In this document: positions 2,496-61,710 of the stretch, piece after piece
How the letters are laid out: each line of letters starts with the position of its first letter
How positions within the stretch are numbered: the first letter of the stretch is position 1
Origin: Paracoccus yeei ATCC BAA-599
Lineage (GTDB): Bacteria; Pseudomonadota; Alphaproteobacteria; Rhodobacterales; Rhodobacteraceae
Direction: 5' to 3'
DNA: 64,000 bases
Assembly: GCF_000622145.1 (NCBI RefSeq)
Contig: NZ_KK211402.1
Location: 2,501-66,500 of the forward strand
The notes under the pieces: generated by a model
The model's database searches: none
Told to the model about the DNA's origin: nothing
Seen by the model: the letters and a program-made list of their open reading frames with translations, nothing else
Made by a program: the position numbers and the translations under genes

Positions 2496-2518
2496 CCCGA
2501 CCTAAACAGTCGGGTTTT
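2496..2518 (+). terminator. Intrinsic terminator of the rRNA operon
   Basis: CCCGAC (2496-2501) pairs with GTCGGG (2509-2514) across a 7-base loop and is followed by TTTT. It lies 30 bases after the tRNA and probably ends the rRNA-tRNA transcript. Confidence 0.8.
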
Positions 2519-2530
2519 GTGCGTTGCATT

Positions 2531-2552
2531 CCATGTCAACGCCATGTCAACG
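2531..2552 (+). repeat. Tandem 11-bp direct repeat behind tRNA-fMet
   Basis: The 11-mer CCATGTCAACG occurs twice without a gap (2531-2541 and 2542-2552). The segment from here to 2728 has no convincing gene. Short direct repeats close to a tRNA 3' end resemble the arm-type sites or scar of an integrated element, but no integrase gene is present here, so this is only suggestive. Confidence 0.5.
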
Positions 2553-2728
2553 TTCTGAGAGTCGACCCCCGCACGACAGTCGTAATCATCGACAATCACC
2601 CGCGCCCAACAATAGCTGATGACATTCGCCGGTGTTGAGCAGAATTGCCCGTGATCTTGTGCGCCGCCCGCAGAGCAGCCCTCTCGGTGCGCTTGGCAGC
2701 GACGTTCAGCTCGTGCCATGAAGGGCAC

Positions 2729-3451: not shown

Positions 3452-4098
3452 CATTTCCGGCTCAACCGCAGTGCAGACGTCCGAGCCGATCGCAGCATAT
3501 GTTGCGCCATCGACGTGGAGGGCGGATTCCAGCCATCCGCTGCGGGTGCAAAGCGACCGAGCGATTTCAGCGGGAGCTGACATTGGGACGAGGTTGAACC
3601 GTTTCTTCTCGGCACTGCCGCAAGGCGGCTTGGGGCCCAACCTGTGGATTGGATTTTCGTGCTGCACGCGCGCACAACGCGAAAAATGCCGCGATAGTGA
3701 GAAAACTGGCTCCGTCGCTCAAAGAAAAGCCGCTTATTCGTGGGTGGCGCAATATGGGTCACGTGTTAAACCTACAAGTCGCGGGACAGAACCGCCGTTT
3801 ACGACGGAGGCTAATGTCGGCCCTTGGGGTGACCGCCCGCATATCAGGGCAAGTCAACATGGGCGCCTTGTGCGTGACTGGGTGACAACGATTGTCCTGG
3901 AACCCAGTGGATACGGGACACACTCGATGCGCCGAACCTAAGCTGCGGAGATTTGCCGACGAACGGGCAGCTATTGAAACTATGCCTGCGTTCTATTGGA
4001 AAAGACTGAGGCCTTTCCCTAGTCTAGTGGAGACCGCCCGGCACACCGGAAGTGGCCACTCTCGACATCCCCGGAACCACATTCTTGAAGTAGGCTTG
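3452..4098. other. Intergenic stretch without a supported gene
   Basis: About 650 bases separate the hypothetical protein from the glycosylase. Open frames up to 156 codons exist on both strands, but their translations look like non-coding reading (rich in R, S, A and C, no recognisable motif, no ribosome binding site). Nothing functional is claimed here. It may be scar sequence from island assembly. Confidence 0.5.
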
Positions 4099-7116: not shown

Positions 7117-7989
7117 ATGGATCTTAATCAGGTCAGGTACTTCCTGAATCTCGCCGAATCCCTGAATTTCACGGAAGCGGCCCGGGTGAGTGGGATATCT
7201 CAGCCCAGTCTCACCAAGGCGATTCAACGTCTGGAAGATGAGTTTGGCGGTCCGGTGCTGTATCGCGACGGCAAGGACACGCGCCTGACGGCCTTGGGCC
7301 GTGATCTGATCGTAGAGTTCATGCGCATTCAATCAGCGCTCGAAAACATCACCGAGCTTGCGGAAAACTCGGTCGCAGGGCGCAGCCGGAAGATCAATAT
7401 TGGCGTCGCAAGCACCATTGCGCCGCGGGTCTTTGCCAAATTCTGGGCGCTCGTTCTGAAGGAATTGCCCGAGGTCGAGCTTCTTCTTCATCCTCTGAAC
7501 CCCGGCGAGGCGGAGGCGGAGGTATTGTCGGGCAAGTATGACATGTGTCTGCTGACCAATCCGCCGGAACCGAATTTCAAACTGACGATCCAACCGCTGT
7601 TCCAAGAGCGGTTGCGCTTGGCCTTGGCAAGTCATCACCCGCTCGCCGGGACAGATGAAATCACGCCAGAGCAGATGATGGAGCAGCCCTATATCGACAG
7701 GATGCACTGCGAATTTCGCACGCAACTGATCAAGCATTTCATGGATCGGAACATTGTCATGCGTCCGCGTTTTCAGTCAGAGCGGGAAGACTGGGTGCAG
7801 CAGATGGTGGCGCAAGGTGCGGGTGTGTGTTCCTTGCCGGAACATTCAGCGATTGTTGATGGAATCGTCCTGCGCGCGGTAAAGGGCCTGACCCTGTCAC
7901 GCAACATCAGCATGGTCGCCGTTTCTGGTTCTGCCAACCCGCGCGAAGTCCGTGTCATCCTTGGATTATCCAAAGATTTCAATTGGTAA
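7117..7989 (+). CDS. LysR-family transcriptional regulator
   Basis: A 290-aa LysR protein with an N-terminal winged helix-turn-helix (residues 1-60, NFTEAARVSGISQPSLTKAI) and a periplasmic-binding-like effector domain. It has only three cysteines: C144, C198 and C238. C198 sits in a segment (RMHCEFRTQ) that aligns by eye with the region of the peroxidatic cysteine of OxyR, although a Cys here also occurs in other LysR proteins and no OxyR-style resolving Cys208 is seen. It lies immediately upstream of the msrB operon in the same direction and is the obvious candidate activator of that operon. Confidence 0.88.
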   Translation: MDLNQVRYFLNLAESLNFTEAARVSGISQPSLTKAIQRLEDEFGGPVLYRDGKDTRLTALGRDLIVEFMRIQSALENITELAENSVAGRSRKINIGVASTIAPRVFAKFWALVLKELPEVELLLHPLNPGEAEAEVLSGKYDMCLLTNPPEPNFKLTIQPLFQERLRLALASHHPLAGTDEITPEQMMEQPYIDRMHCEFRTQLIKHFMDRNIVMRPRFQSEREDWVQQMVAQGAGVCSLPEHSAIVDGIVLRAVKGLTLSRNISMVAVSGSANPREVRVILGLSKDFNW

Positions 7990-8090
7990 TAGGCACACGC
8001 GCGCGGCTATAAAAACTATTCCCGCCAGGAATTTCACAAACGGATCGAAAGTCTCCATCTTCCTCTCAACGGAAGAAGAAGGAGATACAA

Positions 8091-8531
8091 ATGACCTACG
8101 AAAAATCACAGGATGCGCTCTCCAAGCTGACACCCCAACAGTATCACGTTACGCAAGAGAGCGGGACCGAGCGCGCCTTTACGGGTGAGTATGACAAGCA
8201 TTTCGAACCGGGTATCTACGTCGATATCGTTTCCGGCGAGCCGCTTTTCGCATCCTCAGCCAAGTTCAACTCCGGTTGCGGTTGGCCCGCATTCTCGAAA
8301 CCCATCGATAACGTGACCGAGCATCGTGATGCCTCGTATGGCATGGTCCGGGTCGAAGTCCGCTCGAAACACGGCGACAGCCATTTGGGGCATGTCTTCA
8401 ATGATGGCCCGCGCGAAATGGGCGGCCTGCGCTACTGCATCAACTCGGCCAGCCTGCGCTTTGTGCCGAAAGACCAAATGGAAGCCGAGGGGTATGGCGC
8501 ATACCTCGATCAAGTGGAGGAAAAAGTATGA
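8091..8531 (+). CDS. msrB: Peptide-methionine (R)-S-oxide reductase MsrB
   Basis: A 146-aa MsrB that reduces the R epimer of methionine sulfoxide in proteins. Catalytic Cys116 lies in RYCINSAS, the recycling-type Cys63 is present in SGCGWPAF, and the His-rich segment [11 protein letters not shown] is intact. The two CxxC zinc pairs of zinc-type MsrB are absent ([12 protein letters not shown]). An AGGAG ribosome binding site precedes the ATG. It overlaps msrA by 4 bases. A paralogue lies at 56743-57186. Confidence 0.95.
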
Positions 8532-9040
8532 CTGAACGTGCCGTATTGGCCGGAGGCTGCTTCTGGGGGATGCAAGACCTGATCCGCAAGCTGCCCGGCG
8601 TCGAAAGCACCCGGGTTGGCTACACCGGCGGTGACGTGAAATTTGCCACATACCGCAACCACGGAACCCATGCCGAAGGGATCGAGATCCTCTTTGACCC
8701 CTCGAAAACCAGCTATCGTGCGCTTCTGGAGTTCTTTTTCCAGATCCATGACCCGACAACGAAAGACCGCCAAGGTAACGACCGCGGAAGCAGTTATCGG
8801 TCCGCCATTTACTATGTGAATGACGAACAAAAAGCGATTGCCGAAGACACGATCGCGGACGTGAACGCATCTGGGATCTGGCCAGGCAAGGTCGTGACCG
8901 AAGTAGAACCGGTGAGCGATTTCTGGGAAGCTGAGCCAGAGCATCAAGACTACCTGGAGCGTATCCCGAATGGCTATACTTGCCACTTCCCGCGGTCCAG
9001 TTGGGTTTTGCCCAAGCGTGCGGCGACGGCGGCTGAATAA
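8528..9040 (+). CDS. msrA: Peptide-methionine (S)-S-oxide reductase MsrA
   Basis: A 170-aa MsrA that reduces the S epimer. The catalytic signature GGCFWGM is at residues 9-15 (Cys11), followed by [15 protein letters not shown] and [22 protein letters not shown] second cysteine in GYTCHF near the C-terminus may be the resolving one. ATGA overlap with msrB shows coupled translation, so both epimers are repaired by one transcript. A close paralogue is at 56202-56741. Confidence 0.95.
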
Positions 9041-13020: not shown

Positions 13021-13590
13021 ATGAAAATTGATGCAACTGATGCCGTGGCCGCTTTGTCGGAACTCGTAGACGCCGGGTTCACCCATGACTTCCGCATTCA
13101 GAACGGAAAACTCGTGGATGTAAGCGCAGGCCTCGCTGTAAATCCGGCGGAAGTGACGGTCCGGATGAAACTCCGCTTTGAGACCGAGCCGGGTTCGGGC
13201 GACGCCTCGAATATCTATGCGCTTGAGATCGCAGATACGGGCGTCAAAGGGTTTCTTGTCGATGCGCTTGATCTTGAGGGGGATGGTGCCCCGCAAGATC
13301 TGGTCAAGTCACTGAAAACTGCCGAACCGGATACGCGCAGCGAGATGACCGAGGACGAGGATTACCGATACGGTGTCCGCAAGGTCCGCAAGAGCGAGTT
13401 CAACGCCGACCCCGGACGCTATGTTCTCAGGCTTGGGTTCCCTGACTTCCCGGAATGCCCCTTTGGTCAGGGTTTTACGATGCTTGGCTTCGATACGGCC
13501 AGGCAGGAATACGTTTGGCTGGTCACCAAGATTATCGGGGATGAGCGCCTCCAACGGGTGCCTTTCCAAGGCGAAAACAGCGAAGCGTGA
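13021..13590 (+). CDS. Uncharacterised two-part protein of the oxidant module
   Basis: A 189-aa soluble protein of unknown function. Residues about 1-85 resemble the small phosphoribosylpyrophosphate synthetase-labelled proteins (really of unknown function) found in other bacteria, with GFTHDFRIQNGKLVD and NIYALEIADTGVKGFLVDA. The C-terminal half contains the conserved-looking GFPDFPECPFG and ends in EYVWLVTKIIGD. The ATG at 13021 is chosen because an upstream in-frame extension lies inside selO. A frameshifted paralogue sits at 53727-54298 in the second oxidant module, which argues that it is a real part of that system. Confidence 0.75.
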   Translation: MKIDATDAVAALSELVDAGFTHDFRIQNGKLVDVSAGLAVNPAEVTVRMKLRFETEPGSGDASNIYALEIADTGVKGFLVDALDLEGDGAPQDLVKSLKTAEPDTRSEMTEDEDYRYGVRKVRKSEFNADPGRYVLRLGFPDFPECPFGQGFTMLGFDTARQEYVWLVTKIIGDERLQRVPFQGENSEA

Positions 13591-13610
13591 GAATGGCAGA
13601 GGACGAAGAC

Positions 13611-15023
13611 ATGAATCATTTTGACGCCGTAATCATCGGTTCTGGCCAAGCGGCACCTTCGCTCGCGGTTGGGTTGGCCAATCGCGGGCAATCCGTTGCC
13701 CTGATCGAGGGCGACAAGCTGGGCGGGACATGCGTCAATAGCGGCTGCACACCCACCAAGACGTTGCGCAAGTCGGCGCGCGTTGCGCATATGGTGCGGC
13801 GCGCGGCGGATTTTGGCGTCTCCACGGGCGCGGTTACTGTGGATTTTCCCGCCGCAATGGCGCGGATGCGCGAGCGTGTCGATACCGCCCGCCGGGGACT
13901 GACAGCATGGTTAAAGCGCACCAAAGGTGTCGAGGTGATCCACGGTTGGGGCAGTCTTGCCGGGTTCGATGAAAACGGCCGGTTCATCGTCTCTGTAGGC
14001 GAAAGCAAGTTCTCGGCTGACAAGGTCTTTCTGAATACCGGGACTCGTTCGTTTACCCCGCCAGTTCCCGGCCTTGAAAACATCGATGCGCTCGATAATG
14101 CATCACTTCTGGCGCTCGATGAATTGCCTGATCACCTCATCATTGTGGGAGGTTCTTACATCGGCCTTGAGATGGGTCAGATTTTCCGCCGCCTCGGCAG
14201 CAAGGTCACGGTGGTACACCGTTCCGACCGTTTGGCCGAACGCGAGGATGAGGATGTCTCGGAAATCATCGCGAAGTTTTTTCAGGATGAGGGCGTGACG
14301 CTGCACCTGAACGCCAAGATCGCAGGTGTCGGGCGCAGCATGCGCGGCGTTCTGATGACGCTCGAGGATGGTACCGAGATCGCGGGAAGTCATGTCCTGT
14401 TTGCCACGGGGCGTGCCCCGAACACCGACAAGCTGAACCTTGCGGCGGTCGGGCTGGAGACCGATTCACGCGGTTACGTTCCGACCGATGCCAAGCTGCG
14501 CACCAAGGTGCCCAACCTCTGGGCGCTTGGCGATGTGAACCGGCGTGGTGCCTTTACCCATACCAGCTATCACGACCACGAAATCGTGCTGGCCGATCTC
14601 GATAAGATTAAAGACCGCTATCAATGGAAGGACGCCGATCAGCGGCCAACGACCTATGCCATGTTCACCGACCCACCGCTGGGACGCGTCGGCCTGTCCC
14701 GCACCGAGGCGCGAAAACTTGCTGCCGAAGGGCGCAATATCCTAATCGCCGACATGAAGATGGCCGACATCAGCCGCGCCAAGGAAGAAAGCGAGACAAC
14801 CGGCCTGATTCGCATCATCGTGGACGGCGACAGCGAGGCTATTCTGGGTGCCACAGTGTTCGGCATCGCGGGCGATGAGATCATCGCGATCTTTTCGAAC
14901 TTCATGGCCACGGGTGCCAGCTACAAGATCATGCAACAGGCGCTGCCCGTTCACCCGACCGTCGCCGAGTTGATCCCGACGATCCTTGCAGGCTTGAAAC
15001 CGCTGGCGGCCGCCAATGCATGA
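13611..15023 (+). CDS. rclA: RclA-like pyridine nucleotide-disulfide oxidoreductase
   Basis: A 470-aa flavoprotein of the class I disulfide reductase family. It has an FAD-binding GSGQAAPSLAV, the redox-active pair C41/C46 in GGTCVNSGCTPTK, an NAD(P) Rossmann loop (IIVGGSYIGLEMG), the second FAD motif ALGDVNRRG and a C-terminal HPTVAE. The FTHTSYHDHEIVLADL and MFTDPPLGRVGLS segments resemble E. coli RclA, a cupric reductase protecting against hypochlorous acid. It could instead be a mercuric-reductase-like enzyme. The start at 13611 is preferred over 13593 because it has a GAGGACGAAG ribosome binding site and starts right before the FAD domain. Confidence 0.82.
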   Translation: MNHFDAVIIGSGQAAPSLAVGLANRGQSVALIEGDKLGGTCVNSGCTPTKTLRKSARVAHMVRRAADFGVSTGAVTVDFPAAMARMRERVDTARRGLTAWLKRTKGVEVIHGWGSLAGFDENGRFIVSVGESKFSADKVFLNTGTRSFTPPVPGLENIDALDNASLLALDELPDHLIIVGGSYIGLEMGQIFRRLGSKVTVVHRSDRLAEREDEDVSEIIAKFFQDEGVTLHLNAKIAGVGRSMRGVLMTLEDGTEIAGSHVLFATGRAPNTDKLNLAAVGLETDSRGYVPTDAKLRTKVPNLWALGDVNRRGAFTHTSYHDHEIVLADLDKIKDRYQWKDADQRPTTYAMFTDPPLGRVGLSRTEARKLAAEGRNILIADMKMADISRAKEESETTGLIRIIVDGDSEAILGATVFGIAGDEIIAIFSNFMATGASYKIMQQALPVHPTVAELIPTILAGLKPLAAANA

Positions 15024-16008: not shown

Positions 16009-16506
16009 GTGGTAACCATCGGCTTTGGAGGCGGGTGCCATTGGTGCACCGAGGCAGTTTTCCAACCGCTTGAGGGCGTGTCAGAGGTGCGGCAAGGCTT
16101 TATCCGCTCCGACGGCCCTGACGAGGCGTGGTCCGAGGCGGTGGAAATCTCCTTTGATCCTGATCGCGTGAGCTTGCGAGACCTGATCGCGGTCCACCTG
16201 AGCACCCATGCCAGCGAGGCCGATCACAAGATGCGTGGCAAGTATCGAAGCGCGGTCTACAGTATGACCGCGGAGCAGCAAAACGCGTGCGCGACGCATA
16301 TACGGGACCTTGCCGCAGAGGCGGAGGTGCATTTTGTTACGCGCAGCCTTATGCACCGGGGCTTCAAGCCTTCGGACAGCCGATTTCACGATTACTACAA
16401 ATCCAACCCCGAACGGCCCTTTTGCCGCACCTATATCGCGCCGAAACTTGCCAAGCTTCGGGCCCGGCACAGTGCATTGCTCAAGAAGGAATACACAACG
16501 TCATGA
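16009..16506 (+). CDS. msrA: Second, divergent peptide-methionine (S)-S-oxide reductase
   Basis: A 165-aa MsrA-family protein with GGGCHWCTEAVF near the N-terminus. Cys10 is the expected nucleophile and an additional Cys13 is present. The usual Phe between C and W is His. Other family segments are KMRGKYRSAVY and RFHDYYKSNPERPFC. It starts with GTG 4 bases after the AhpD-like gene and overlaps the antiporter gene by 4 bases. It is much more divergent from the MsrA at 8528 than the copy at 56202 is, so it may act on a different substrate set. Confidence 0.85.
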   Translation: MVTIGFGGGCHWCTEAVFQPLEGVSEVRQGFIRSDGPDEAWSEAVEISFDPDRVSLRDLIAVHLSTHASEADHKMRGKYRSAVYSMTAEQQNACATHIRDLAAEAEVHFVTRSLMHRGFKPSDSRFHDYYKSNPERPFCRTYIAPKLAKLRARHSALLKKEYTTS

Positions 16507-19743: not shown

Positions 19744-20190
19744 ATGATCGACAAGAACCACTTGCGCAACACGATGCTGGCCCTGACAGAGGCCGAACTT
19801 GAGCAAGCCCATAAAACCTATGAGCGATTTCTCAGCGCCGCGCGGCTGGATCGCACGGAGCCGATTGAAAATGACGAACAGGGCCAAGCAGAAACCGCCG
19901 CCGATCTTGCTGAGGCGTTCGATGACCGCGAGCATCAAGTGGAAGCCAAAATCTCAGCGTTGAACGTGCTTGATTTCGGACCGAAAACCGAAGTGGCGCC
20001 GGGCGCAGCAGTGCGGATCGGGGATCGCTATCTGGTCATTGGCGTCTCGACAGGAGAGTTTTCATGTCAGGGGCAGAAATTTATCGGTGTCTCACAAGCG
20101 GCGCCAATCTACGAGGCCCTGGAAGGCAAGAGAGCCGGTGAATTCTGTGAGTTCCGCGGCCGCAAGCTGAAGGTCACTGAGGTCTACTGA
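19744..20190 (+). CDS. GreA/GreB C-terminal-domain-like protein
   Basis: A 148-aa protein with a predicted helical N-terminal half containing ARLDRTEPIENDEQGQAE and a C-terminal beta-rich half resembling the FKBP-like GreA/GreB C-domain (FGPKTEVAPGAAVRIG, APIYEALEGKRAGE). The N-terminal helices are shorter than the coiled coil of GreA, so transcript-cleavage stimulation is doubtful; it may bind RNA polymerase differently. A clear paralogue at 53186-53635 shares the EPIENDE block and the CQG segment. Confidence 0.72.
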   Translation: MIDKNHLRNTMLALTEAELEQAHKTYERFLSAARLDRTEPIENDEQGQAETAADLAEAFDDREHQVEAKISALNVLDFGPKTEVAPGAAVRIGDRYLVIGVSTGEFSCQGQKFIGVSQAAPIYEALEGKRAGEFCEFRGRKLKVTEVY

Positions 20191-52129: not shown

Positions 52130-53164
52130 TAGAGAACCTTCGCCGGCTTTGCGGCCATCGCTTCGATGACCGCACTTTTCCATGTGGCGTTCGTGGAGCC
52201 GATCGCCTGGATGCCGCTTCGCCTGATTACCGGCTTCGCCTATGCAGGCATGATCCTCGCAACGGAGAGCTGGCTCAACGCGCACGCAGTGCAATCCACG
52301 CGCGGGCAACTCCTGTCGATATTCGGAGTCGTCTCGATGGGCTCATGGGCAATCGGGCAGGCGCTACTCAACATCGCACCGCCCGCCGACGTGACACTGT
52401 TCCTCATCGTGTCGCTCTTGATATCGGCGGCTGTGGTTCCGATCACCTTGCTGCCCAGTCATCCGCCGGCCCAGGTCGAACAGGAGCGGGTCGTATTCAG
52501 GGACCTCGTCCTCGCATCGCCCCTCGCTGCTGCTGGCGCGTTCCTGGCCGGCCTGGCTATCGGCGGTTTCTGGGGCATGGGCCCAAACTTTGGCCAGAGG
52601 ATCGGACTCGATGTGGGCGGCATATCCGCCTTCATGGCTGCGGTTCTTGGTGGAACGCTGGCGTTGCAGTGGCCACTCGGCTGGCTTTCGGATCGAGTGT
52701 CCCGAAATCTTGTCATCGCCGGTGCGGCACTGGCGTCCGCGGCGGCTGCCGTCGGCGTAGCGATGGCCGCGGAAGCACCTCTGCCCCTGCTCCTCGCGGC
52801 GGGTGCTCTTTTTGGTGGCTTTGGCATACCGATCTATTCGTTGTGCCTCGCGGTCGCGAACGACGATCTTCCGGCCAGTCGGCTACTGGGCACCGCGCGC
52901 GGGCTTCTGCTACTCAACGGGATCGGGACAGCCGCGGGCCCCCTCATCGGGGGAGCGGCGATGGCTATCGTAGGTCCAGGCGGCTTGTTCCTTTATGCGG
53001 CGGCGTTGCTCATCATCCTGGCGGTGCTGGCCGTCACACGCAGGCAGCCGAGTCCCCCAAACCAGGCCAAGGCCGGCGCCCGTTGTCCGAGCACGCCGAT
53101 GATCACGGGATCTCTCGATACGATGATATGCATGCAAGGAAAGACCCAGGACGTTCGGCATTAG
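52130..53164 (+). pseudogene. MFS transporter truncated at its 5' end
   Basis: The sequence encodes membrane segments 4 onward of an MFS transporter (PLRLITGFAYAGMILATESW, PLGWLSDRVSRNL and LLGTARGLLLLNGIGTAAGP are typical) in frame from about 52130 to the stop at 53164. Roughly 80-100 N-terminal residues, including the first membrane helices, are missing. The break coincides with the boundary of the foreign block to the left, so it was probably cut by an insertion or recombination. Confidence 0.75.
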
Positions 53165-53185
53165 TGTGGGCGGCGGTGGGGTGCC

Positions 53186-53635
53186 TTATTCTACGTCTTC
53201 TACTGTGAGATCCCGTCCGTTGAACTGCACGGTCTCCCCGGCTCGGGCACCCTCGATTGCTTCGAAGATCGGCGCCATCGTGGAAATGCCCATGAGCTCA
53301 CGCCCCTGACAGGTGAACTTGCTCGTTGACACCGCGATCACAAAGTGGCGGCCAGACAGCTTGACGACTGCGCCTTCGTTGACGGCCAACTTGGGACCGA
53401 AATCGATCGTCCTGAGTTTTTCGAGTTTATCAGCATAGTCATGGAGCGTGTCATCGAGCGCTTCGGCGAAGTCGCTTGCGACCTCGGCCTGAGCTAGTTC
53501 GTCGTTTTCGATCGGTTCGCTCCGATCGAGCCGAGCGGTGGAGACATAATCCAGATAATTGTCGCGAGCGCTATGCAAGGCTGCAGTTTCCAGCGAAAGC
53601 ATAGTTTCCCGAATATGGTCTTTATTCCAATCCAT
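53186..53635 (-). CDS. GreA-C-like protein, paralogue of 19744-20190
   Basis: A 149-aa protein sharing the ARLDRSEPIENDELAQAE block, FGPKLAVNEGAVV and a CQG segment with the protein at 19744. The N-terminus is a charged helix. The second member of an apparently conserved pair in both oxidant modules. Its role is unknown, although RNA polymerase binding is plausible. Confidence 0.75.
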   Translation of the reverse strand: MDWNKDHIRETMLSLETAALHSARDNYLDYVSTARLDRSEPIENDELAQAEVASDFAEALDDTLHDYADKLEKLRTIDFGPKLAVNEGAVVKLSGRHFVIAVSTSKFTCQGRELMGISTMAPIFEAIEGARAGETVQFNGRDLTVEDVE

Positions 53636-53726
53636 AAATCACCTCGTTATGTTTCGATAATACAAATATCCGGTAGACTGGTCCGCGACCTCTTCGGGAG
53701 GGGACCACAGGGGCTCGCTGATCCTG

Positions 53727-54298
53727 CTATTCATCGCTGATGACGTCCTCTCCCTGATAAGGAATTCTAATCAGCCGTGAATCTCGGATGATGCTTGTGA
53801 CGAGCCAGACATATGACCGCTCGGCGGTATCGAAGCCGAGAATGCTGAAGGCTCCGCCGAAGGGGCATGCTGGGAAGTCTGGAAAGCCCTGCCGCACAAC
53901 GTAACGCTCGGGATCGCGGTCAAACTCGCTCTTGTAGACTTTGCGCAGTCCGTGCTTGCTCGGCACATCCTGGTCACCTGCGGGACTGTTTCCCGATGCG
54001 CTACGAGGCGCTCAGAGAGGTCGCGGTGACACATTTCGTCGAATACGTCGAACGCGTCGATCAACAGGCCCTTGTGCCCTGTCGCTGGATCGGTGATCGC
54101 GTAGATGTTGGAGGCGTCTTCTGCGTCACTCCCGCTTTCGAGGCGTAACGCCGCGTCGATGCGAAGGGCGCAAGGGTCCAGTGTTGATCCGAGATCGAGA
54201 TCGACGAGATTGCCGTCTTTGACGCGGTACTCGCGGTTGTAGCCCTTGGCGACGAAGGACTGCACTGTTTCTAGAACGTCGGTCACTTGGGATGTCAC
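53727..54298 (-). pseudogene. Frameshifted paralogue of the 189-aa island protein
   Basis: The N-terminal part starts at GTG 54298 and carries GYNREYRVKDGNLVD and NIYAITDPATGHKGLLIDAF. Around 53965-53995 the frame is lost. The C-terminal part continues in another frame with SKHGLRKVYKSEFDRDP and GFPDFPACPFG. One base missing or extra near there explains it. Either the copy is inactive, a sequencing error occurred, or the frame is corrected by slippage; no slippery heptamer was seen. Confidence 0.7.
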
Positions 54299-54392
54299 GG
54301 CTGCACCTATGCTTGGTGTCGTATTGAGCCCGCCCCGGCGTCGGGCGCGCTGTGACCGGTCGGATGACGGCGAGTTTTGCGAGACGCGGTAT

Positions 54393-55361
54393 TCACAGCC
54401 ACTTGGCCATCTTGAAGCGCACAAACAGGAAAAGGCAGGATATCGCCATCACCCCGAGTACGACGAAGTATCCGTAGGCCGTGTCCAGTTCCGGCATATG
54501 CTTGAAGTTCATGCCGTATATTCCAGCGATCGCCGTCGGGACTGCGAGTATTGCCGCCCAAGCGGCAAGCTGACGGGTGATCACCCCGATCCTTTGTGCT
54601 TCCAAAAGGCTGCTGGCCTCAAAGACTGTAGACAGGACCTGAAGGAGGCCGTCGACCATTGACTGCACCCGATCGACGTGATCCGCGACATCGTTAAAGT
54701 ACGGCCTCACTTCGGCGCTGATGCAGGGGAAATGCCCGCGGACGAGTTTTCTGACCAGTTCGGCCATAGCGCCGAGCGTGCGTTGGAAGCGCGTGAGTTC
54801 GGCCCTCAGCCCGAAGATGCGGGCGACTTCTGCCCGTCCGAGAAAATCGTCTAACGACCGTTTCTCCATCGCGAGGACGTCATCCTCGATCATTTCGAAG
54901 ATGGGCAGATACTGGTCGACGATACGGTGCAAGATCGCGTGCAGCACGTAGTCGACACCCTTTCCGAAGAGCGCCGGCGAAGCCTCGAGTTGCTCCCGAA
55001 GTTTGCCTAGCGCTCCGGCGTTGCCGTGCCGCACGCTGATGAGATGATTGTGACCGGTGAAGATCGCCATCTTGCCGTAGCTGATCCGGTCGCCGACCAG
55101 TTCGGCAGTCTGCGCGACGATGTATAGCTCGCCGTTGTAGACGTCGAGCCTGGGCGGGCACAGCGGGTGCATCGCGTTATCGATTGCCAACGGATGGAGG
55201 TGATACGTCGCCTGAAGCGCGTGAAGTTCGTCGGCGGTGGGATCCAGAAGAGCGATCCAGCAGAAACCCGAGCGACCCTTGTCGAGTTGGACGCGCTCGT
55301 CGATCGCGATTTCCCGGATTCGCTTGCCTTCGTTGTAATAGTAGGCGGCGATGACGCTCAT
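54393..55361 (-). CDS. corA: CorA-family Mg2+/Co2+ transporter
   Basis: A 322-aa protein with the CorA signature YGMNF near the C-terminus and two terminal membrane helices (about residues 260-282 and 292-312). The start at 55361 (MSVIAAYYYNEGKRI) overlaps the transferase stop (ATGA), so the longer reading is rejected. It mediates divalent cation transport. Confidence 0.9.
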   Translation of the reverse strand: MSVIAAYYYNEGKRIREIAIDERVQLDKGRSGFCWIALLDPTADELHALQATYHLHPLAIDNAMHPLCPPRLDVYNGELYIVAQTAELVGDRISYGKMAIFTGHNHLISVRHGNAGALGKLREQLEASPALFGKGVDYVLHAILHRIVDQYLPIFEMIEDDVLAMEKRSLDDFLGRAEVARIFGLRAELTRFQRTLGAMAELVRKLVRGHFPCISAEVRPYFNDVADHVDRVQSMVDGLLQVLSTVFEASSLLEAQRIGVITRQLAAWAAILAVPTAIAGIYGMNFKHMPELDTAYGYFVVLGVMAISCLFLFVRFKMAKWL

Positions 55362-56062
55362 GCCGACCTCGCAGGGATTTGCAGGCCACGCTGCACTGCC
55401 GGTCGAGCCAAGCCACGGCCGAGCCATTTCTGGATGTTCGAATAGTCGCTGAGGCTAAGGATGTCGCCAGCAGCGTAGAGTTCAACCAGCGCATTCACCC
55501 AGCCGAGCGTCGCGATGTCCGCAATCGAATAGTCGTCGACGAGCCAATCACGGCCTTCCAGTTGGCGATCCAGGATGCCGAGGAGACGCTTGGATTCATC
55601 GACAAAGCGCTGCCGAGGCCGTTTGTCCTCATAGTCCTTACCGCCCCACCGCAGGAAAAAGCCAAGCTGACCGAAGATCGGCCCGATGGCCGACACCTGG
55701 AAGAATACCCAGGCCAAGGTTTCGTAACGTTGGGCGGGTGAACTCGGAATGAACTGGCCCGTCTTGTCGGCCAGGTAGATAAGGATCGCACCGGATTCCC
55801 AAACGGCAATGGGGTTGCCGTCCGGGCCCGCCGGATCGATGATCGCCGGTATGCGGCCGTTCGGGTTTAACGAGACGAACGCTGGGTCCTTCGACTCGTT
55901 GTTCGAGATGTCGATCAGGTGGGGCTCGTACGCTAGGCCAGTCTCCTCCAGCATGATCGAGGCTTTGACGCCATTGGGCGTTGGCGCGGCGTACAATTGC
56001 AGGCGGTCGGTATGAGAGGCCGGCCAGCGCTGCGTGACCGGAAATGATGAGAGGTCTGGCAT
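55358..56062 (-). CDS. Glutathione S-transferase (YghU/YfcG-like)
   Basis: A 234-aa GST-fold protein with the N-terminal thioredoxin-like region NGVKASIMLEETGLAYEPHL and NPNGRIPAIIDPAGPDG and a helical C-domain (WLVDDYSIADIATLGWV). Related proteins are disulfide-bond oxidoreductases that use glutathione. It sits between msrA and corA in the second oxidant module. Confidence 0.88.
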   Translation of the reverse strand: MPDLSSFPVTQRWPASHTDRLQLYAAPTPNGVKASIMLEETGLAYEPHLIDISNNESKDPAFVSLNPNGRIPAIIDPAGPDGNPIAVWESGAILIYLADKTGQFIPSSPAQRYETLAWVFFQVSAIGPIFGQLGFFLRWGGKDYEDKRPRQRFVDESKRLLGILDRQLEGRDWLVDDYSIADIATLGWVNALVELYAAGDILSLSDYSNIQKWLGRGLARPAVQRGLQIPARSA

Positions 56063-56201
56063 AATTCTGCGATCCTGTTGCTACGACGGCGGCTGACTCA
56101 AATGACCACCTCATCAATGCGGGGTCCGATGACCGCGTCGTTTGACGACACGGTCAAGAAGAGTGCGAACCCGAGCGGCGCAGCGGCAACGTCAGTGAAG
56201 A

Positions 56202-56741
56202 CTATTCCGCTGCGGTGTCGGCCGCAGGCTGCACATCGCCAGCCTTTTGGCGCTGTGGAAGCACCCAGCCGGGACGGGGGAAGTGACAGGTATAGCCGCC
56301 GGGCCGCTTCTCCAGATAGTCTTGATGTTCCGGTTCGGCCTCCCAGAAATCGCCGACCGGCTCGACCTCGGTGACGACCTTGCCATCCCACAGCCCGGAG
56401 GCATCCACGTCGGCGATCGTGTCCTCTGCGACGCGCTTCTGCTCCTCGTCGACGTAATAGATACCCGACCGGTAGGAGAGCCCACGATCATTGCCCTGGC
56501 GGTCCTTCGTCGTAGGATCGTGGATCTGGAAAAAATACTCCAGGATGTTCCGGTAGCTCGTCACTGCCGGGTCGAAGACGATCTCAATCCCCTCGGCATG
56601 CGTGCCGTGATTGCGATAAGTGGCGTCCGGAACATCCCCGCCGGTGTAGCCGACACGGGTAGAGACGATGCCGGGTCGCTTGCGGATCAGATCCTGCATG
56701 CCCCAGAAACATCCGCCTGCGAGAATTGCGCGCTGGTGCAT
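56202..56741 (-). CDS. msrA: Peptide-methionine (S)-S-oxide reductase MsrA
   Basis: A 179-aa MsrA. The catalytic signature GGCFWGM (Cys11) is followed by [34 protein letters not shown] and [13 protein letters not shown], almost the same as the copy at 8528. Its start codon lies 1 base after the msrB stop, so the two are coupled. Confidence 0.94.
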
Positions 56742-56742
56742 G

Positions 56743-57186
56743 TTAGGCCTCCTCTACCTGGTTGAGATATTCGCCGTATCCCTCGGCCTCCATCTCATCG
56801 CGAGGAATGAAGCGAAGGGACGCTGAGTTGATGCAGTAGCGCAGACCGCCGCGGTCGGGAGGACCGTCGGGAAACACGTGGCCGAGATGGCTGTCGGCGT
56901 GCACCGACCTGACCTCCGTCCGGACCATGCCGTGCGCGCTGTCCCTAACCTCGTTCACGTTTGCTAGCACGATCGGTTTGGTGAAGCTCGGCCAGCCAGA
57001 ACCCGAATCGAATTTGTCCGTCGAAGCGAACAGTGGCTCTCCCGACACAATGTCGACGTAGATGCCCGGCTCCTTGTTGTCGTTATACTCGCCCGTGAAG
57101 GGCCTTTCGGTGCCCGACTCCTGGGTAATCCGGCGTTGTTCGGGGGTCAGGCGGTGGACTGCTGTCTGTGACTTTTCAAACTTCAT
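56743..57186 (-). CDS. msrB: MsrB lacking the usual recycling cysteine
   Basis: A 147-aa MsrB with catalytic Cys118 in RYCINSAS. Residue 63, Cys in the copy at 8091, is Ser here (SGSGWPSF), so a classical intramolecular disulfide cannot form and a different electron donor or Cys is needed. The start at 57186 has a GGAG site; a TTG at 57198 is rejected. It heads the second oxidant module. Confidence 0.92.
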
Positions 57187-57303
57187 GATAGTCTCCAATA
57201 ATTATATAGAGGGCCATGCAAACTACCGGTTAATTTGTCGGTCATTGCTTCAACTATCGCAGTGCGGCTTAGATTTATCCAATACACTGTGCGTCCTGCA
57301 TTC

Positions 57304-58956
57304 CCCAAGTGGCGTGTCGTTTGAGGTGAAGATCGCCTGTATCCGAGCGCTAGACAAGGATTTTCTGCCGCAAGCGGCACCTGCGGTCGCGCAGACTGCT
57401 GGATCTGGACGGATCAGACCGCGAAGCCGCTGTTTCCTTGCCCAGGGGCGGCGTTTTTCAGCGCAGCGGACAGATCTGTCCAGCCGCTTTCGTTCAGTTT
57501 GAGCGTGGATCGCGATCATGCGCATAGCGGTGGCGCTCGCAATCGGCGGATAGCGGCGAGGATGGCGCGTACCATCGTGCCGGTGACAGCGACCTCGGCC
57601 AGCTGGAAGGTGATGGTGCGGGCGTGACGGACCACACGTGCCCCGATCTTGATCAGCTTCAGTTGCAGGCTGGTCAACGACCAGTCGGCCATGGCCTCGG
57701 GCAGCTCGATGCAGCGCAAGAAGGTGGCCAGGTTGTACGCCAGGGCGTGCAGTTGCAGCCGCACCTCATTGTCGCGGAACTTCCGGCACGACAGCCGCGT
57801 CCAGCGAAAGGCGTATTTGCCCTCTTTGATGTGCTGCTCGGCGGTGCCGCGCTGGTTGTAGAACCGCACCACCCAGTCCGGCTCCATCGGCAGGTTGGTG
57901 ACGATGAAGCCGACACGCGGGAACAGTTCGCCCGGATGCCATTCGATCTTGGCGATCACCCGGCGTTCCTTGTCCCAGGACGCCGCCTGATACTCGAATT
58001 CCTCGAAGAACCGCTTGACCTTGGTCAGTGACGGCCGCCCGACAGGGCGCGTTAGCCGATGCGCGATCTTGTCCTTGAGGACCGCGTTTGCGGGCAGCCG
58101 GATGGCGTAGAAGAACCGCGCTTCTTCCAATCGCTCATAGATCGCCGGGATCGCGTAGGCAGCATCGGCCCGGAAGAACCTGCCACCAAGGTCGCGCTCC
58201 GCGTAGCGCGCAATGACGGGGTCGAGAACATCACGCCAGCCATCGGCGCTGTGGACGTTGCCATGGCGCAGGGCGCAGCGTTCCAGCATCCCGAACTGGT
58301 TGAACAGAAAGTTGGGGTGATAGCAGCTACAGTCGAAATGGCCATTCCAGGCAGACCCTTCCTGGTCGCCATGGGTCGGGCTGACCGAGCTGTCCATGTC
58401 CAGAACGATGTACTTCAGCCCGTTACGGTCATGGAACCGGTCGATCCATTGCCCGTTCAGGTCGGCCAGCGCGGCACGGTTCCCGGCCAGAGCCAGCGTC
58501 TCGGTCTCGAACCGTCCCATCTGCGATGCCGAGGCCGCTTGTGCATCGACCGCTCTGCCGCCGACAACTTGGCGCATGACCGGATCGCAGGCGAGACGGT
58601 TGGCGTCGTTGACATCCTCGTATCCGGCCAGCCGCCCAAAGACTGATTGCCGGAACAGGCCGTCGAGCCGATGGACCGTGTTCTTGCCAGAGCGAGTATC
58701 GCGCAGCGCCGCTGACGCCAAATCGGACAACCCGAGCGCGTCATCAAGCTCGCGCATCACCAGAAGGCCGCCGTCGGAACTGAGCTGCGTGCCGCGAAAT
58801 TCCAGCCGCACGCGAGGGTCGAAATCCACCCGATCTGCCCGTTGCAAGCCCGCACCCTCTGGGTGATCCATGAAACGCGCCCCTCGCAGCCTTCAACACC
58901 ATGTTTTATATAGGAAATATAATGGTCAGGACAGCGAAATCAGCGCCTTACTTGGG
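57304..58956 (-). mobile_element. IS1380-family insertion sequence
   Basis: One DDE transposase is framed by matching inverted ends: CCCAAGTGGCG at 57304 and, reversed, CCCAAGTAAGGCGCTG ending at 58956. The resulting 1.65 kb is the usual length for this family. No 4-base target duplication was clear. It separates the second msr module from the methyltransferase genes, landing 34 bases past the stop of the latter. Confidence 0.7.
57516..58871 (-). CDS. IS1380-family transposase
   Basis: A 451-aa DDE transposase, apparently intact. Typical segments are FRGTQLSSDGGLLVMRELDD, KYIVLDMDSSVSPTHGDQEG and EQHIKEGKYAFRWTRLSCRK near the C-terminus (the conserved acidic Glu). It has no obvious frameshift, so the element could still be mobile. 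Confidence 0.93.
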   Translation of the reverse strand: MDHPEGAGLQRADRVDFDPRVRLEFRGTQLSSDGGLLVMRELDDALGLSDLASAALRDTRSGKNTVHRLDGLFRQSVFGRLAGYEDVNDANRLACDPVMRQVVGGRAVDAQAASASQMGRFETETLALAGNRAALADLNGQWIDRFHDRNGLKYIVLDMDSSVSPTHGDQEGSAWNGHFDCSCYHPNFLFNQFGMLERCALRHGNVHSADGWRDVLDPVIARYAERDLGGRFFRADAAYAIPAIYERLEEARFFYAIRLPANAVLKDKIAHRLTRPVGRPSLTKVKRFFEEFEYQAASWDKERRVIAKIEWHPGELFPRVGFIVTNLPMEPDWVVRFYNQRGTAEQHIKEGKYAFRWTRLSCRKFRDNEVRLQLHALAYNLATFLRCIELPEAMADWSLTSLQLKLIKIGARVVRHARTITFQLAEVAVTGTMVRAILAAIRRLRAPPLCA

Positions 58957-58990
58957 AAATGTGGGTTTAGATGAAATGGCTCATCATCAG

Positions 58991-60325
58991 TCAATCATAT
59001 TGTGCAACAGTGGCAGTCCTGCCCGTCGCCATCTCCCACCGGCGCACGGCGACGTCGCAATAGGCCGGGTCCAGTTCCACCGCGCGGCAGCGCCGCCCGG
59101 TGCGTTCCGCAGCGATCAGCTGGGTGCCGGAGCCGCAGAAGGGTTCGAACACCAAGTCGTCGGGATTGCTGAATGCCTCCAGCACCGCCTCGGCCAGCGC
59201 GACGGGGAACACGGCCGGGTGCGATCCGGCCGCGCCCAAGCCCCCTTTGTGGCGCATGATACGGAACACAGAGTCCGGAATGCGGTGGCTCTGGATCGCG
59301 TTGCCGGTGCCGGTCTTGGCGGGGACGGTGCCGTCGGCCCCGCGTAGACCACCGCCGCCGAGAGTTTCGCCCGCGTGCTTGGACGGGACGGTCTTGTGCG
59401 GTTTGCGTGGGCTTCGGTTGAAGTGGAATATGAACTCGTGCGACGGGGCCAGGCGGCCGTTCCAGTCGCCCGGCAATCCCGGCCCCTGATCCCAGACATA
59501 CCAACCAAAGCGCCGCCAGCCAGAGTTGCGCATCCATTCCACCCATCCTTCCCAATAGGGCTGCCATTCACTGTCGCGATGCACGAGGCCGAGATTGACC
59601 AGCAGCTGGGCATCGGTCGTGACCGGCGCTGCGCTGAAAACGCCCTGCATCAGCGCATCCCAATCCCCGACCTTTTCCTTGGCGGCGCCGTAGTCCCGCT
59701 GCTGCGCATAGGGCGGCGAGGTGAACATCAGCGTGGCCTGTTCGCCCTGCATCAGACTGGCGACGATGGCTGGATCGGTGGCATCGCCGCAGCACAGCCG
59801 ATGCTTGCCAAGCGCCCAGATGTCGCCCGGCTTGGTGATGGGTTCGGCGGGCGGGGCAGGGATGGCATCGGCAGCGTCGTCGTCGATCAACGTCCTGTCG
59901 TCGTCGCCCGCGTGCAGCAGGGCGTCCAGTTCATCCTCGGGGATTCCGATCAGCCCAAGGTCGAAATCCTCAGCCAGCAGCGCCTGAAGTTCCTGCAGCA
60001 GCAGGGCCTCGTCCCAGCCGCCCAACTCGGTCAACTTGTTGTCGGCGATGCGATAGGCCCGGCGCTGCGCTTCGGTCAGATGGCCCAGCACGATGACCGG
60101 AACCTCAGTCAGCCCAAGATGCGCGGCGGCCAGGATGCGACCATGGCCAGCGATCAACTCCCCGTCGGCGGCCACCAGCACCGGCACGGTCCAGCCGAAC
60201 TCGGCCATGCTGGCGGCGATCTTCACGACCTGACCGGCGTCGTGGGTCTTGGCGTTTCGGGCGTAGGGTTTCAGCCGGGCGAGTGGCCAATGTTCAATCC
60301 GGCCCGGCAGCAGGGGCGCGTTCAT
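58991..60325 (-). CDS. ParB-domain DNA methyltransferase, TSPPY type
   Basis: A 444-aa protein. Residues 1-110 are a ParB/Srx-like domain (AGHGRILAAAHLG, RAYRIADNKLTELGGWDEA) and the rest a beta-class amino-methyltransferase, with TSPPY at 202-206 and FEPFCGSGTQ near 393. SPPY is typical of N4-cytosine enzymes. It overlaps the next gene by 4 bases and is a close relative of it. Such fused methyltransferases are common on phages and may block host restriction. Confidence 0.88.
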   Translation of the reverse strand: MNAPLLPGRIEHWPLARLKPYARNAKTHDAGQVVKIAASMAEFGWTVPVLVAADGELIAGHGRILAAAHLGLTEVPVIVLGHLTEAQRRAYRIADNKLTELGGWDEALLLQELQALLAEDFDLGLIGIPEDELDALLHAGDDDRTLIDDDAADAIPAPPAEPITKPGDIWALGKHRLCCGDATDPAIVASLMQGEQATLMFTSPPYAQQRDYGAAKEKVGDWDALMQGVFSAAPVTTDAQLLVNLGLVHRDSEWQPYWEGWVEWMRNSGWRRFGWYVWDQGPGLPGDWNGRLAPSHEFIFHFNRSPRKPHKTVPSKHAGETLGGGGLRGADGTVPAKTGTGNAIQSHRIPDSVFRIMRHKGGLGAAGSHPAVFPVALAEAVLEAFSNPDDLVFEPFCGSGTQLIAAERTGRRCRAVELDPAYCDVAVRRWEMATGRTATVAQYD

Positions 60326-61584
60326 GCGGCCATTCTCTTCGCCTTCAGGTCGGCGAAGCTATCGCCGGTTTCCACCAGCACGGCCTCCTGGCCGGTAAAT
60401 GACTGCCAGCGCTCCACGGCCACGTCGACATAGGCCGGGTTCAGTTCCACGCCAAAGCAGACACGCCCCGTCGTCTCGGCCGCGATCAGCGTGGTGCCGG
60501 AACCCATGAAGGGCTCGTAGACCGCCTGACCCGGGCTGGAATTGTTCAGGATCGGCCGTCGCATGCATTCGACCGGTTTCTGCGTGCCGTGGACCGTGTC
60601 GGCGTCCTGATCCCGGTTGGCGATCTGCCACAGCGTCGTCTGCTTGCGGTCCCCGGCCCAATGGCCCTTGCCCTTGGCGCGGACGGCATACCAGCAGGGT
60701 TCGTGCTGCCAGTGATAATCGCCTCGGCTGAGGACCAGCCGGTCCTTGGCCCAGATGATCTGCGAGCGGATGGCGAAGCCTGCAACCAAGAGGCTTTCAG
60801 CAACCGTCGCCGCGTGAAGCGCGCCGTGCCAGACATAGGCGACATCGCCCGGGAACAGTGCCCAAGCCTCGCGCCAATCGGCACGGTCGTCATTCAACAC
60901 CTTGCCGGTGCGCTTGGTCTTGGCCGCTCCTGCCTGGTTGCGCCAGCTTGGGTCATACTCCACGCCGTAGGGCGGGTCCGTCACCATCAGCAACGGCTTC
61001 ACGTCGCCGAGCAGCCGCCCGACGACATCGGCGGAGGTGCTGTCGCCGCAGATCAGCCGGTGCGATCCAAGCTGCCAAAGGTCACCCGCCACCGAGACCG
61101 GGGTGACCGGTAACTCCGGAACGTCGTCCTCGCCCTCGACGGGGCCATCGCCGCCCAGCGCATCGGGATCCCGCAACAGCGCATCGAGATCATCCTCGCT
61201 GATGCCTAGCAGCGTAAGGTCGAAATCCTCGGCCAGCAGCCCTGCGATCTCGTCGCGCAGCATTGCCTCGTCCCATTCGCCCAACTCTGTCAATTTGTTG
61301 TCCGCGATCCGGTACGCCCGGCGCTCCGCTTCATCCAGATGGCCAAGCCGGATCACCGGCACGTCGGTCAGCCCCAGCATGGTCGCGGCCAGAACCCGGC
61401 CATGACCCGCAATAAGCTCGCCATCGTCGGCCACCAAGCAGGGCACGGTCCAGCCGAACTTGGCCATGCTGGCGGCGATCTTGGCCACCTGGTCGTCACC
61501 GTGCATTTTGGCATTGCGGGCATAGGGGCGCAGCCGGTCGAGAGGCCAAGTTTCAATCTGGCTCGGCGCAAAGACAAGGTCCAT
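60322..61584 (-). CDS. ParB-domain DNA methyltransferase, DPPY type
   Basis: A 420-aa protein with the same domain layout: ParB-like head (AGHGRVLAATMLG, IADNKLTELGEWDEA), DPPY at 203-206 and FMGSGTTLIAAETTG near 375. DPPY is typical of N6-adenine enzymes. The start at 61584 (MDLVFAPSQ) is used since an upstream in-frame start adds 32 unlike residues. It looks like a tandem duplicate of the neighbouring gene with changed specificity. Confidence 0.88.
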   Translation of the reverse strand: MDLVFAPSQIETWPLDRLRPYARNAKMHGDDQVAKIAASMAKFGWTVPCLVADDGELIAGHGRVLAATMLGLTDVPVIRLGHLDEAERRAYRIADNKLTELGEWDEAMLRDEIAGLLAEDFDLTLLGISEDDLDALLRDPDALGGDGPVEGEDDVPELPVTPVSVAGDLWQLGSHRLICGDSTSADVVGRLLGDVKPLLMVTDPPYGVEYDPSWRNQAGAAKTKRTGKVLNDDRADWREAWALFPGDVAYVWHGALHAATVAESLLVAGFAIRSQIIWAKDRLVLSRGDYHWQHEPCWYAVRAKGKGHWAGDRKQTTLWQIANRDQDADTVHGTQKPVECMRRPILNNSSPGQAVYEPFMGSGTTLIAAETTGRVCFGVELNPAYVDVAVERWQSFTGQEAVLVETGDSFADLKAKRMAA

Positions 61585-61676
61585 GGGTGGGGTTCGGATC
61601 CGGGGCAGGGCGGACAGACCAATGCAAGCCCCGGCAAACGCCGGTTGCTGTGTCAGGGTCCGCGATGGGGGGGAAA

Positions 61677-61710
61677 GCAAAAGCGCCCGCGAGGGGTTTC
61701 CTCCGGGCGC
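61677..61710 (-). terminator. Intrinsic terminator or attenuator upstream of the methyltransferases
   Basis: GCGCCCG (61683-61689) pairs with CGGGCGC (61704-61710), with the inner pair GAGG/CCTC. On the minus strand the hairpin is followed by TTTTGC. It is located about 95 bases before the methyltransferase start, so it stops incoming transcription or attenuates this operon. Confidence 0.68.

Follow-up and report, generated by a model that had tools for sequence, protein, structure and literature searches.

Does the Paracoccus yeei ATCC BAA-599 genome carry two versions of one methionine sulfoxide reductase module side by side, or two gene sets with separate histories? The stretch analysed here, called the window throughout, is 64,000 nt long (positions 2501-66500 of contig C3 in a 4.43-Mb, 70-contig genome). 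One gene set, island A, lies towards its left end; the other, copy B, occupies 52133-57294, 30 kb from island A, with all genes on the minus strand except that of a major facilitator superfamily (MFS) transporter. A preliminary description of the window had pointed out this second set, which the present analysis confirms, and had taken it for a reduced, degraded version of the island A module, either older or independently acquired. We consider it likely that copy B is a truncated, recently transferred fragment of a distinct operon (type B) residing in the same island as the type A set, and that the operon, when intact, acts as an oxidant-inducible repair system.

Copy B and its plasmid relatives

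The features of copy B are as follows.

56743-57198, minus strand: MsrB of type B (PF01641, E = 1.2e-48; TIGR00357, 193.7 bits, above the cut-off of 113.05; 94% identical to MsrB of plasmid pFBAOT6)
56202-56741, minus strand: MsrA of type B (PF01625; TIGR00401, 164 bits, above the cut-off of 108.1; 89% identical to that of pFBAOT6)
55358-56062, minus strand: glutathione S-transferase (GST), 84% identical to that of pFBAOT6
54393-55361, minus strand: CorA-family ion transporter (CorA-like; above the PF01544 cut-off)
about 53727-54298, minus strand: gene of the 189-aa family, frameshifted, both halves under purifying selection
53186-53635, minus strand: intact gene for a 149-aa protein of predicted Gre fold (GreA/GreB/Gfh1-like), 98% identical to the pFBAOT6 protein
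52133-53164, plus strand: remnant of an MFS transporter, corresponding to residues 81-423 of the plasmid protein
57187-57294, minus strand: what remains of the msrB upstream region, 108 bp, with a core-promoter-like element kept and the operator and LysR gene absent
57295-58965, minus strand: insertion sequence (IS) of 1671 bp with a DDE transposase (PF13701) and imperfect terminal inverted repeats, adjoining copy B at 57295

Homologues of MsrB begin at 57186, inside the called open reading frame 56743-57198. The best NCBIfam models for the GST are glutathione-dependent disulfide-bond oxidoreductases, both scoring under their cut-offs (174.3 against 325 and 137.1 against 332), and the CorA protein stays below the cut-off of the CorA magnesium transporter equivalog TIGR00383 (181.2 versus 200.75 bits).

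The closest comparison was made with a gene run of about 17 kb in the Aeromonas caviae plasmid pFBAOT6, ordered LysR-msrB-msrA-GST-corA-189-Gre-like-ridA and followed by the MFS gene on the other strand. Beyond LysR this run continues with OsmC/hydrolase, a second msrA, MarR, DUF417 and YeeE genes, and beyond the MFS side lie ISApu1/ISApu2. Copy B keeps the type B plasmid order from MsrB through MsrA, GST, CorA and the 189-aa gene to the Gre-like gene and the opposite-strand MFS remnant, with DNA identity to pFBAOT6 of 84.6% over window 53127-57294 and 89.2% over 52133-53164; some Klebsiella plasmids are slightly closer (86.5% versus 85.9% for pFBAOT6). Among 72,556 plasmid records, 206 matched the Gre-like protein, in 120 cases across 80% or more of the query, and the copy B segment was matched in 17 of 5426 complete E. 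coli genomes (12 over at least 80%), all 19 places being plasmids; plasmid records, like many of the loci treated below, are near-copies and such counts are not independent. Phage carriage was looked for in a scan of viral contigs, in which 155 pattern matches included no relative. By these comparisons copy B is part of an operon that is distinct from island A, mobile and widespread; its DNA identity to the copies on IncU and Enterobacterales plasmids is about 86%.

Two other assemblies are closer still. Falsigemmobacter faecalis (Rhodobacterales) is 100% identical to copy B over 2707 bp (window 52990-55696, up to the end of its contig) and Gemmobacter serpentinus is 99.9% identical over 3824 aligned columns (window 52551-56371). 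Because such near-identical stretches occur in other genera, the arrival or exchange of copy B was recent. The F. faecalis fragment stops at window position 52990 and joins directly the region upstream of island A (window 5255 onward, 98.5%), so that B and A have adjoined each other in more than one layout. In Paracoccus sp. S1E-3, an island A that is 99.97% identical in DNA to that of the window stands head to head with a fuller B (a second msrA, OsmC, and LysR through the Gre-like gene; no ridA or MFS seen), yet this B is just 77.7% identical to copy B. The B copies of the two strains thus have separate origins.

Comparison with island A

The corresponding genes of island A are these.

7117-7989, plus strand: LysR
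8091-9040, plus strand: MsrB and MsrA
13021-13590, plus strand: 189-aa protein, intact
19744-20190, plus strand: protein of predicted Gre fold

Identity between copy B and island A is highest for MsrA (139 of 170 residues, 82%), followed by MsrB (105/145, 72%) and the Gre-like protein (75/148, 51%). For the 189-aa family, the island A protein was compared with two intact type B homologues, with identities of 47% and 45%. The two CorA proteins share 60 of 286 residues (21%) and fall into different NCBIfam subfamilies, that of island A being nearer ZntB (169.7 bits versus 91.8 for CorA) and that of copy B nearer CorA (181.2 versus 34.6 for ZntB); their orthology was rejected on both counts. No GST turned up among the island A genes that were scanned. 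The genome encodes a distant MsrA on contig C19 (41%) and another in island A (29%), and its canonical GreA is located on contig C5, the Gre-like gene being a mobile extra copy beside it.

Five pairs of paralogues had been proposed for the two sets. Four of these, MsrA, MsrB, the 189-aa protein and the Gre-like protein, are on the evidence of these identities true homologues of island A genes, whereas CorA is a superfamily match only. The idea of a second, reduced copy of the same module is borne out in so far as A and B have these four families, a LysR type and an operator in common; it does not extend to the history of the sets: by sequence, A and B belong to lineages that are clearly distinct, and their CorA subfamilies and neighbouring genes are not the same.

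Island A encodes, at 16009-16506, a third member of the MsrA family that is highly divergent (24% identical to the copy B MsrA). It is also present in the A. caviae plasmid p3_SCLZS52, whose type A module is nearly complete.

Spread of the gene core and phylogeny

Scanning 84,980 species genomes for the Gre-like family with two peptide patterns, an approach that for this reason favours close relatives, yielded 78 loci. Counts are given for 76, two loci with a Gre-like fragment alone (L106 and L107) having been left out, and after dropping tblastn hits that covered less than 30% of the query or overlapped a better hit. The 189-aa gene lies directly upstream of the Gre-like gene in 64 of the 76 loci. 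MsrB, MsrA, CorA, the 189-aa protein and the Gre-like protein are encoded on one strand within 6 kb in 47 loci, and in 46 together with the GST, which upholds the earlier proposal of a recurrent core that includes two uncharacterised proteins. Among the remaining loci several are cut by contig ends, and others are of type A or of a third arrangement (type C) in which the 189-aa and Gre-like genes are paired away from MsrA. The hosts named in the records belong to the Alpha-, Beta- and Gammaproteobacteria.

Among near relatives the Gre-like family was found in 3 of 101 genomes, in a phylum sample in 4 of 398 (one being a weak partial match) and in a family-level sample in 32 of 295, here mostly as distant homologues; the P. 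yeei genome itself is counted each time. Recurrence here exceeds chance, since the family is present in 4/398 genomes yet twice in the window, each time with MsrA, MsrB and the 189-aa gene. Distant homologues (33-52% identity) occur in 31 of the 294 other genomes of the family. Stretches of about 3 kb at 29 of these loci (L112-L140) contained none of the core genes; SelO stands beside one (L122), an O6-methylguanine methyltransferase gene beside another (L115) and an integrase gene beside a third (L131). Among the chromosomal neighbours of distant Gre-like homologues (10 proteins) no shared theme emerged.

Trees were built after removal of near-identical rows and of the long-branch MsrA rows of L097, L064 and L076, with the A, B and C labels assigned by hand. 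The Gre-like tree separates an A clade (support 100/99) from a B clade (98/97). The tree of the 189-aa family, which left out the broken window gene and carries a long-branch warning, does the same (A 100/100, from two type A rows; B 100/99). The MsrA proteins of B modules group together (100/97), with the second msrA of type B in a clade of its own next to them, while type A is not resolved and its grouping in one clade was not rejected (approximately unbiased test, p-AU 0.34); for MsrB a single type A clade was marginally rejected (p-AU 0.045). Placement of the pairs in unrelated families, or absence of the five-gene set from other genomes, had been named beforehand as grounds for giving up the idea of a shared module. 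Of these, a split was found for CorA alone, and at the level of subfamily.

Decay of copy B

Copy B had been called degraded on account of a frameshift, a truncated MFS gene and a neighbouring IS, and each of these stands. The MFS protein is without its first 80 N-terminal residues. The frameshift in the 189-aa gene is also found in the F. faecalis and G. serpentinus assemblies, intact copies existing elsewhere; because three assemblies carry the same shift, it is most likely real and inherited, and assembly error was judged an unlikely cause. To these losses, the LysR gene, the operator and ridA, which lies 3' of the Gre-like gene in pFBAOT6, are to be added. No duplication is visible in the 10-bp flanks of the IS, so a rearrangement, and not a simple insertion, probably made this end of copy B. 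The IS, which we take to be of IS1380 type, has a partial identical copy on contig C8.

Selection was estimated against pFBAOT6 for every gene of copy B but the MFS remnant, as the ratio of nonsynonymous to synonymous rates (omega). Values were 0.025-0.154 for MsrB, MsrA, GST, CorA and the Gre-like protein, the last having the lowest (0.025), and 0.136 and 0.195 for the two halves of the 189-aa gene.

A shared operator and the loss of the LysR switch

Alignment of the LysR-msrB intergenic regions revealed a conserved block, CTATnnAAACTAT, which is a putative shared operator upstream of msrB in the A and B lineages. It has 77 exact sites in the 78 loci (1.436 Mb of related DNA) and none in five Markov-1 simulations of the same DNA. 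The gene following the site is MsrB in 40 cases, an MsrP-like molybdopterin gene in 31, OsmC in two, another module gene in one and unassigned in three. In 33 distinct LysR-msrB intergenic regions, representing all three locus types (A, B and C), the block is exact in 25 cases, carries one mismatch in seven and two in one. Two matches lie in the window, versus 0.05 expected.

8007-8019, plus strand: island A operator CTATnnAAACTAT, 84 bp before msrB
3971-3983, plus strand: second island A operator, at the head of a gene run ending in LysR

Perfect matches to the longer form GCTATNNAAACTAT number two in the P. yeei genome, both in island A; one-mismatch sites elsewhere in the genome number two, versus one for a reversed control pattern. 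The run behind 3971-3983 consists of a glycosylase-like gene (by eye), DUF1348, PNPOx-like and TIM barrel genes, and LysR, and the position of the site suggests a second operon of the island A regulon. The 31 sites before MsrP-like genes belong to loci between L031 and L084 and lie about 1.5-5.6 kb downstream of the Gre-like gene, the molybdopterin genes behind them being 46-49% identical to that of island A. This arrangement suggests that type B islands have a second operon controlled by the same LysR.

The LysR proteins of island A and of the pFBAOT6 B module agree at 45 of 60 positions in the DNA-binding part (75%) and at 92 of 230 in the rest (40%). An operator and a LysR DNA-binding domain shared across the two lineages are new here, the sites being predicted from sequence.

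LysR and the operator precede msrB in pFBAOT6 and are absent from copy B, and for this reason copy B is called a fragment and not an intact member. Its homology ends at 57294, the downstream edge of the operator, where the IS begins. Within the 108 bp that are kept (57187-57294) no operator was found allowing up to 3 mismatches, and the only genome match to the type B LysR at E values up to 1e-20 was the LysR of island A (47%). A core-promoter-like TTGGAT-N18-GATAGT, read by eye, remains upstream of msrB.

Some plasmid copies have also lost parts of the switch. In p10265-KPC msrB is kept and the sequence upstream is different, whereas in pCI190083_2 the operator is kept and Tn5403 genes stand in the place of LysR. 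Of five further plasmid stretches, four have kept LysR and one is interrupted by a transposon. With megablast, at least 80% of msrBA was matched in 341 plasmid records, LysR in 156 and the operator stretch in 157, which is a difference of counts over clonal records in which divergent LysR genes could be missed. Judged from these plasmid sequences, loss of the switch is not unique to the window copy.

The Gre-like and 189-aa proteins

The preliminary description had likened one protein of the core to the C-terminus of GreA. An AlphaFold2 model built from 28 sequences (pLDDT 76.8) has a two-helix hairpin (residues 5-35 and 46-76) and a C-terminal beta domain, so that both the coiled-coil N-domain and the FKBP-like C-domain of Gre factors are seen on the predicted model. 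The first eight Foldseek matches are Gfh1, GreA and GreB (E 2e-4 to 2e-3, probability 0.99-1.00). Gre-type chains also take the first six places with VIA, led by Gfh1 in an RNA polymerase complex (136 residues aligned, rmsd 4.2), at a Z of 9.8 that is modest for a partly helical model, values below about 13 being attainable by a common arrangement in mostly helical models. The hairpin tip EPIENDE is invariant in the 28 aligned members, and acidic residues occupy tip positions 40, 43 and 46 in 56, 57 and 57 of 58 members, presumably the place of the acidic pair D41/E44 of GreA.

Besides the modest Z, the low confidence of the modelled tip region (block means 54-62) speaks against this assignment, as does the weak hhalign match to the GreA of the same genome (probability 8.5%), which covers the C-terminal domain alone. 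The window copy scores 12.4 against the PF01272 (GreA_GreB) gathering threshold of 26.9, 36 of 58 members being weak matches (E up to 1, best 8.1e-5), and a search of PDB sequences with the family returned a Gre chimera (E 0.56) as its sole match. Our prediction for the Gre-like protein is a complete Gre fold with an acidic tip and a role as RNA polymerase factor, resembling GreA, GreB and Gfh1 in hairpin, beta domain and tip and differing from them in a far diverged sequence.

The 189-aa protein was modelled with a pLDDT of 63.1. Foldseek returned no match at E 0.001 and VIA none with Z of at least 5 (best 3.8); nothing credible was found in Pfam and nothing among PDB sequences. Its N-terminal half may resemble small proteins of Bacteroidetes that carry the annotation phosphoribosyl pyrophosphate synthetase.

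Setting of the two gene sets

Island A and copy B are bracketed by tRNA-Met (window 2390-2466) on one side and, at C3:86631-86681 (L023:6631-6681), by a 51-bp direct repeat of the tRNA end (94%) on the other, with a phage-type integrase gene (PF00589, L023:727-2007) near or inside the far end. The repeat and the integrase together therefore suggest an integrated element of about 82 kb holding A, a prophage-like region and B. In S1E-3, too, A and B are found near tRNA-Met in matching chromosomal sequence (window 4-2554, 92.6%).

The prophage-like region extends over about 26-46 kb of the window and includes a gene transfer agent TIM-barrel tail protein (PF13547, 29144-33181, minus strand); S1E-3 has a 72-78% identical counterpart beyond island A. 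Beside the IS, at 58991-61680 on the minus strand, are two genes that by eye are similar to each other, each with a ParB-like start and a DNA methylase part. The first matches PF01555, and similar DNA is present near island A in S1E-3. To the right of the window, two large genes at L020:2297-7814 (C3:68696-74213) appear by eye to be a type III restriction-modification pair.

Proposed function and alternative explanations

MsrA and MsrB reduce methionine sulfoxide, and Gre factors restart backtracked RNA polymerase. For induction, its trigger and the activity of the Gre-like protein we infer the following. In intact copies the LysR encoded upstream probably binds CTATnnAAACTAT and, when bound, would switch on msrB-msrA-GST-corA-189-Gre-like(-ridA) under oxidant stress. 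MsrA and MsrB would then repair oxidised methionine, the GST would probably reduce disulfides and the Gre-like factor would probably rescue stalled RNA polymerase, with supporting roles for CorA and the 189-aa protein. This would amount to oxidant-inducible repair of protein and transcription, probably against reactive chlorine; reactive chlorine or a similar strong oxidant is the likeliest trigger, and chlorine itself has about an even chance of being it. Copy B has lost LysR, the operator and ridA, and its 189-aa gene is disrupted, so MsrA/B, GST, CorA and the Gre-like protein could be made there at a basal level or by read-through at most. We expect weak constitutive expression or none.

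DUF417 proteins are encoded in both lineages. This family includes RclC and RcrB, RcrB being reported as the major defence against hypochlorous acid (HOCl), whose loss removes the extra HOCl resistance of strain CFT073 (PMC9600549), and Gre factors aid the survival of Salmonella under oxidant (PMC10072461).

Several observations weigh against this functional reading, which draws on sequence and predicted structure. In the Salmonella study, Gre factors did not alter antioxidant gene expression (PMC10072461). The island A flavin (FAD) reductase (13587-15020) stays under the RclA cut-off NF040477 (306.8 against 740), the DUF417 proteins under the RclC cut-off NF040476 of 275 (57.5 in A, 89.1 in the pFBAOT6 B module) and the island A molybdopterin protein under the MsrP cut-off (56.2 against 207). 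Membership in RclA and RclC was rejected on these scores, and the three failed cut-offs tell against naming an rcl system. The fold of the 189-aa protein, finally, offers no structural match to lean on.

The alternative that survives best, and to which we give serious weight though short of calling it probable, accepts the same mobile repair operon and has it selected by general peroxide, organic hydroperoxide or disulfide stress. MsrA/B, GST, redoxin, AhpD-like CMD and OsmC domains respond to many oxidants, and the failed RclA, RclC and MsrP cut-offs point the same way. Against it, RidA in B, the 31 operator sites that precede an MsrP-like gene and the five MsrA/MsrB-family proteins in one window fit a hypochlorite response. 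The presence of DUF417 in both lineages fits such a response as well (PMC9600549).

It is also possible, though rather doubtful, that the Gre-like protein, for all its Gre fold, inhibits or regulates in the manner of Gfh1 or DksA and does not stimulate transcript cleavage. Its best structural matches are to Gfh1 and the window copy misses the GreA_GreB cut-off (12.4 versus 26.9), whereas the acidic EPIENDE tip, invariant in 28 members and presumably at the position of GreA D41 and E44, is at odds with such a role.

That the cluster is neutral baggage carried along by insertion sequences and resistance plasmids we regard as improbable. Many plasmid copies seem to be without the regulator, and in some plasmids beta-lactamase or other resistance genes lie nearby (PMC4785139, PMC9984417). 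Such baggage would not be expected to show purifying selection in every B gene measured (omega 0.025-0.195), nor an order and operator conserved in loci of many genera.

Least credible, and very improbable, is that copy B is an older copy derived from island A, or arrived with it in this genome, and is now decaying: the frameshift, truncated MFS, adjoining IS, four common gene families, LysR type and operator would allow it, but the separate A and B clades of the Gre-like and 189-aa trees, the 100% and 99.9% identity to other genera over 2.7 and 3.8 kb, and the 77.7% identical B beside a 99.97% identical A in S1E-3 led us to reject the older duplicate and, of the two origins first proposed, to retain independent acquisition.

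Relation to known systems and implications

The anatomy of the cluster is known from resistance plasmids. In the portions of the literature that were available, msrB-msrA-yfcG-corA-orf8 is named as part of the IncP-6 backbone (PMC4785139) and msrB-msrA-yfcG-corA is listed beside blaAFM (PMC9984417, PMC9602987), as backbone or cassette genes without function. The IncP-6/IncU cluster (p10265-KPC, pFBAOT6) has the same genes in the same order as copy B, with DNA about 84-86% identical, and its annotated orf8 stands in the place of the 189-aa gene. The available parts of PMC4785139, PMC9984417 and PMC9602987 make no mention of the Gre-fold gene, the LysR operator, the two lineages or a chromosomal island. 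Among the open-access literature searched, the same parts of these three papers contain no test of the function of the cluster, and those of PMC4211555 nothing on function.

The nearest functional parallel, working alike at most, is the transmissible locus of stress tolerance (tLST), described in PMC8407380 as a mobile island for chlorine and heat tolerance in Enterobacteriaceae with sHsp20, ClpK, PscA/B, HdeD and KefB. Its core of sHsp20 and ClpK is not among the A and B proteins scanned, the pFBAOT6-type module having been scanned in part. Island A carries a PF00999 antiporter, which we take to belong to the broad superfamily of KefB and which is possibly the sole overlap of island A with the tLST. 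With E. coli rclABC and uropathogenic E. coli rcrARB, the two gene sets have in common a DUF417 membrane protein (A and B) and an FAD disulfide reductase (A); they differ by LysR regulation and the additional Msr and Gre-like genes, and their members score under the RclA and RclC cut-offs.

The shared operator, the shared LysR type and the predicted Gre-fold member together make a mobile oxidant-repair regulon a testable hypothesis. In its widest form, which we put forward tentatively and as the less probable outcome, a mobile LysR regulon would link methionine sulfoxide repair with a Gre-type factor dedicated to RNA polymerase rescue, whereby transcription too would be repaired during chlorine-type oxidation; it would move between alphaproteobacterial islands and hospital and wastewater resistance plasmids, and would repeatedly shed its regulator, turning from inducible to constitutive. 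The gene set is found on hospital and wastewater plasmids, some of them with carbapenemase or other resistance genes, and if the hypothesis is true the regulon could favour plasmid carriers in chlorinated settings. The findings also open a way into two orphan protein families, and copy B provides a concrete case of an operon that loses its switch while its enzymes persist.

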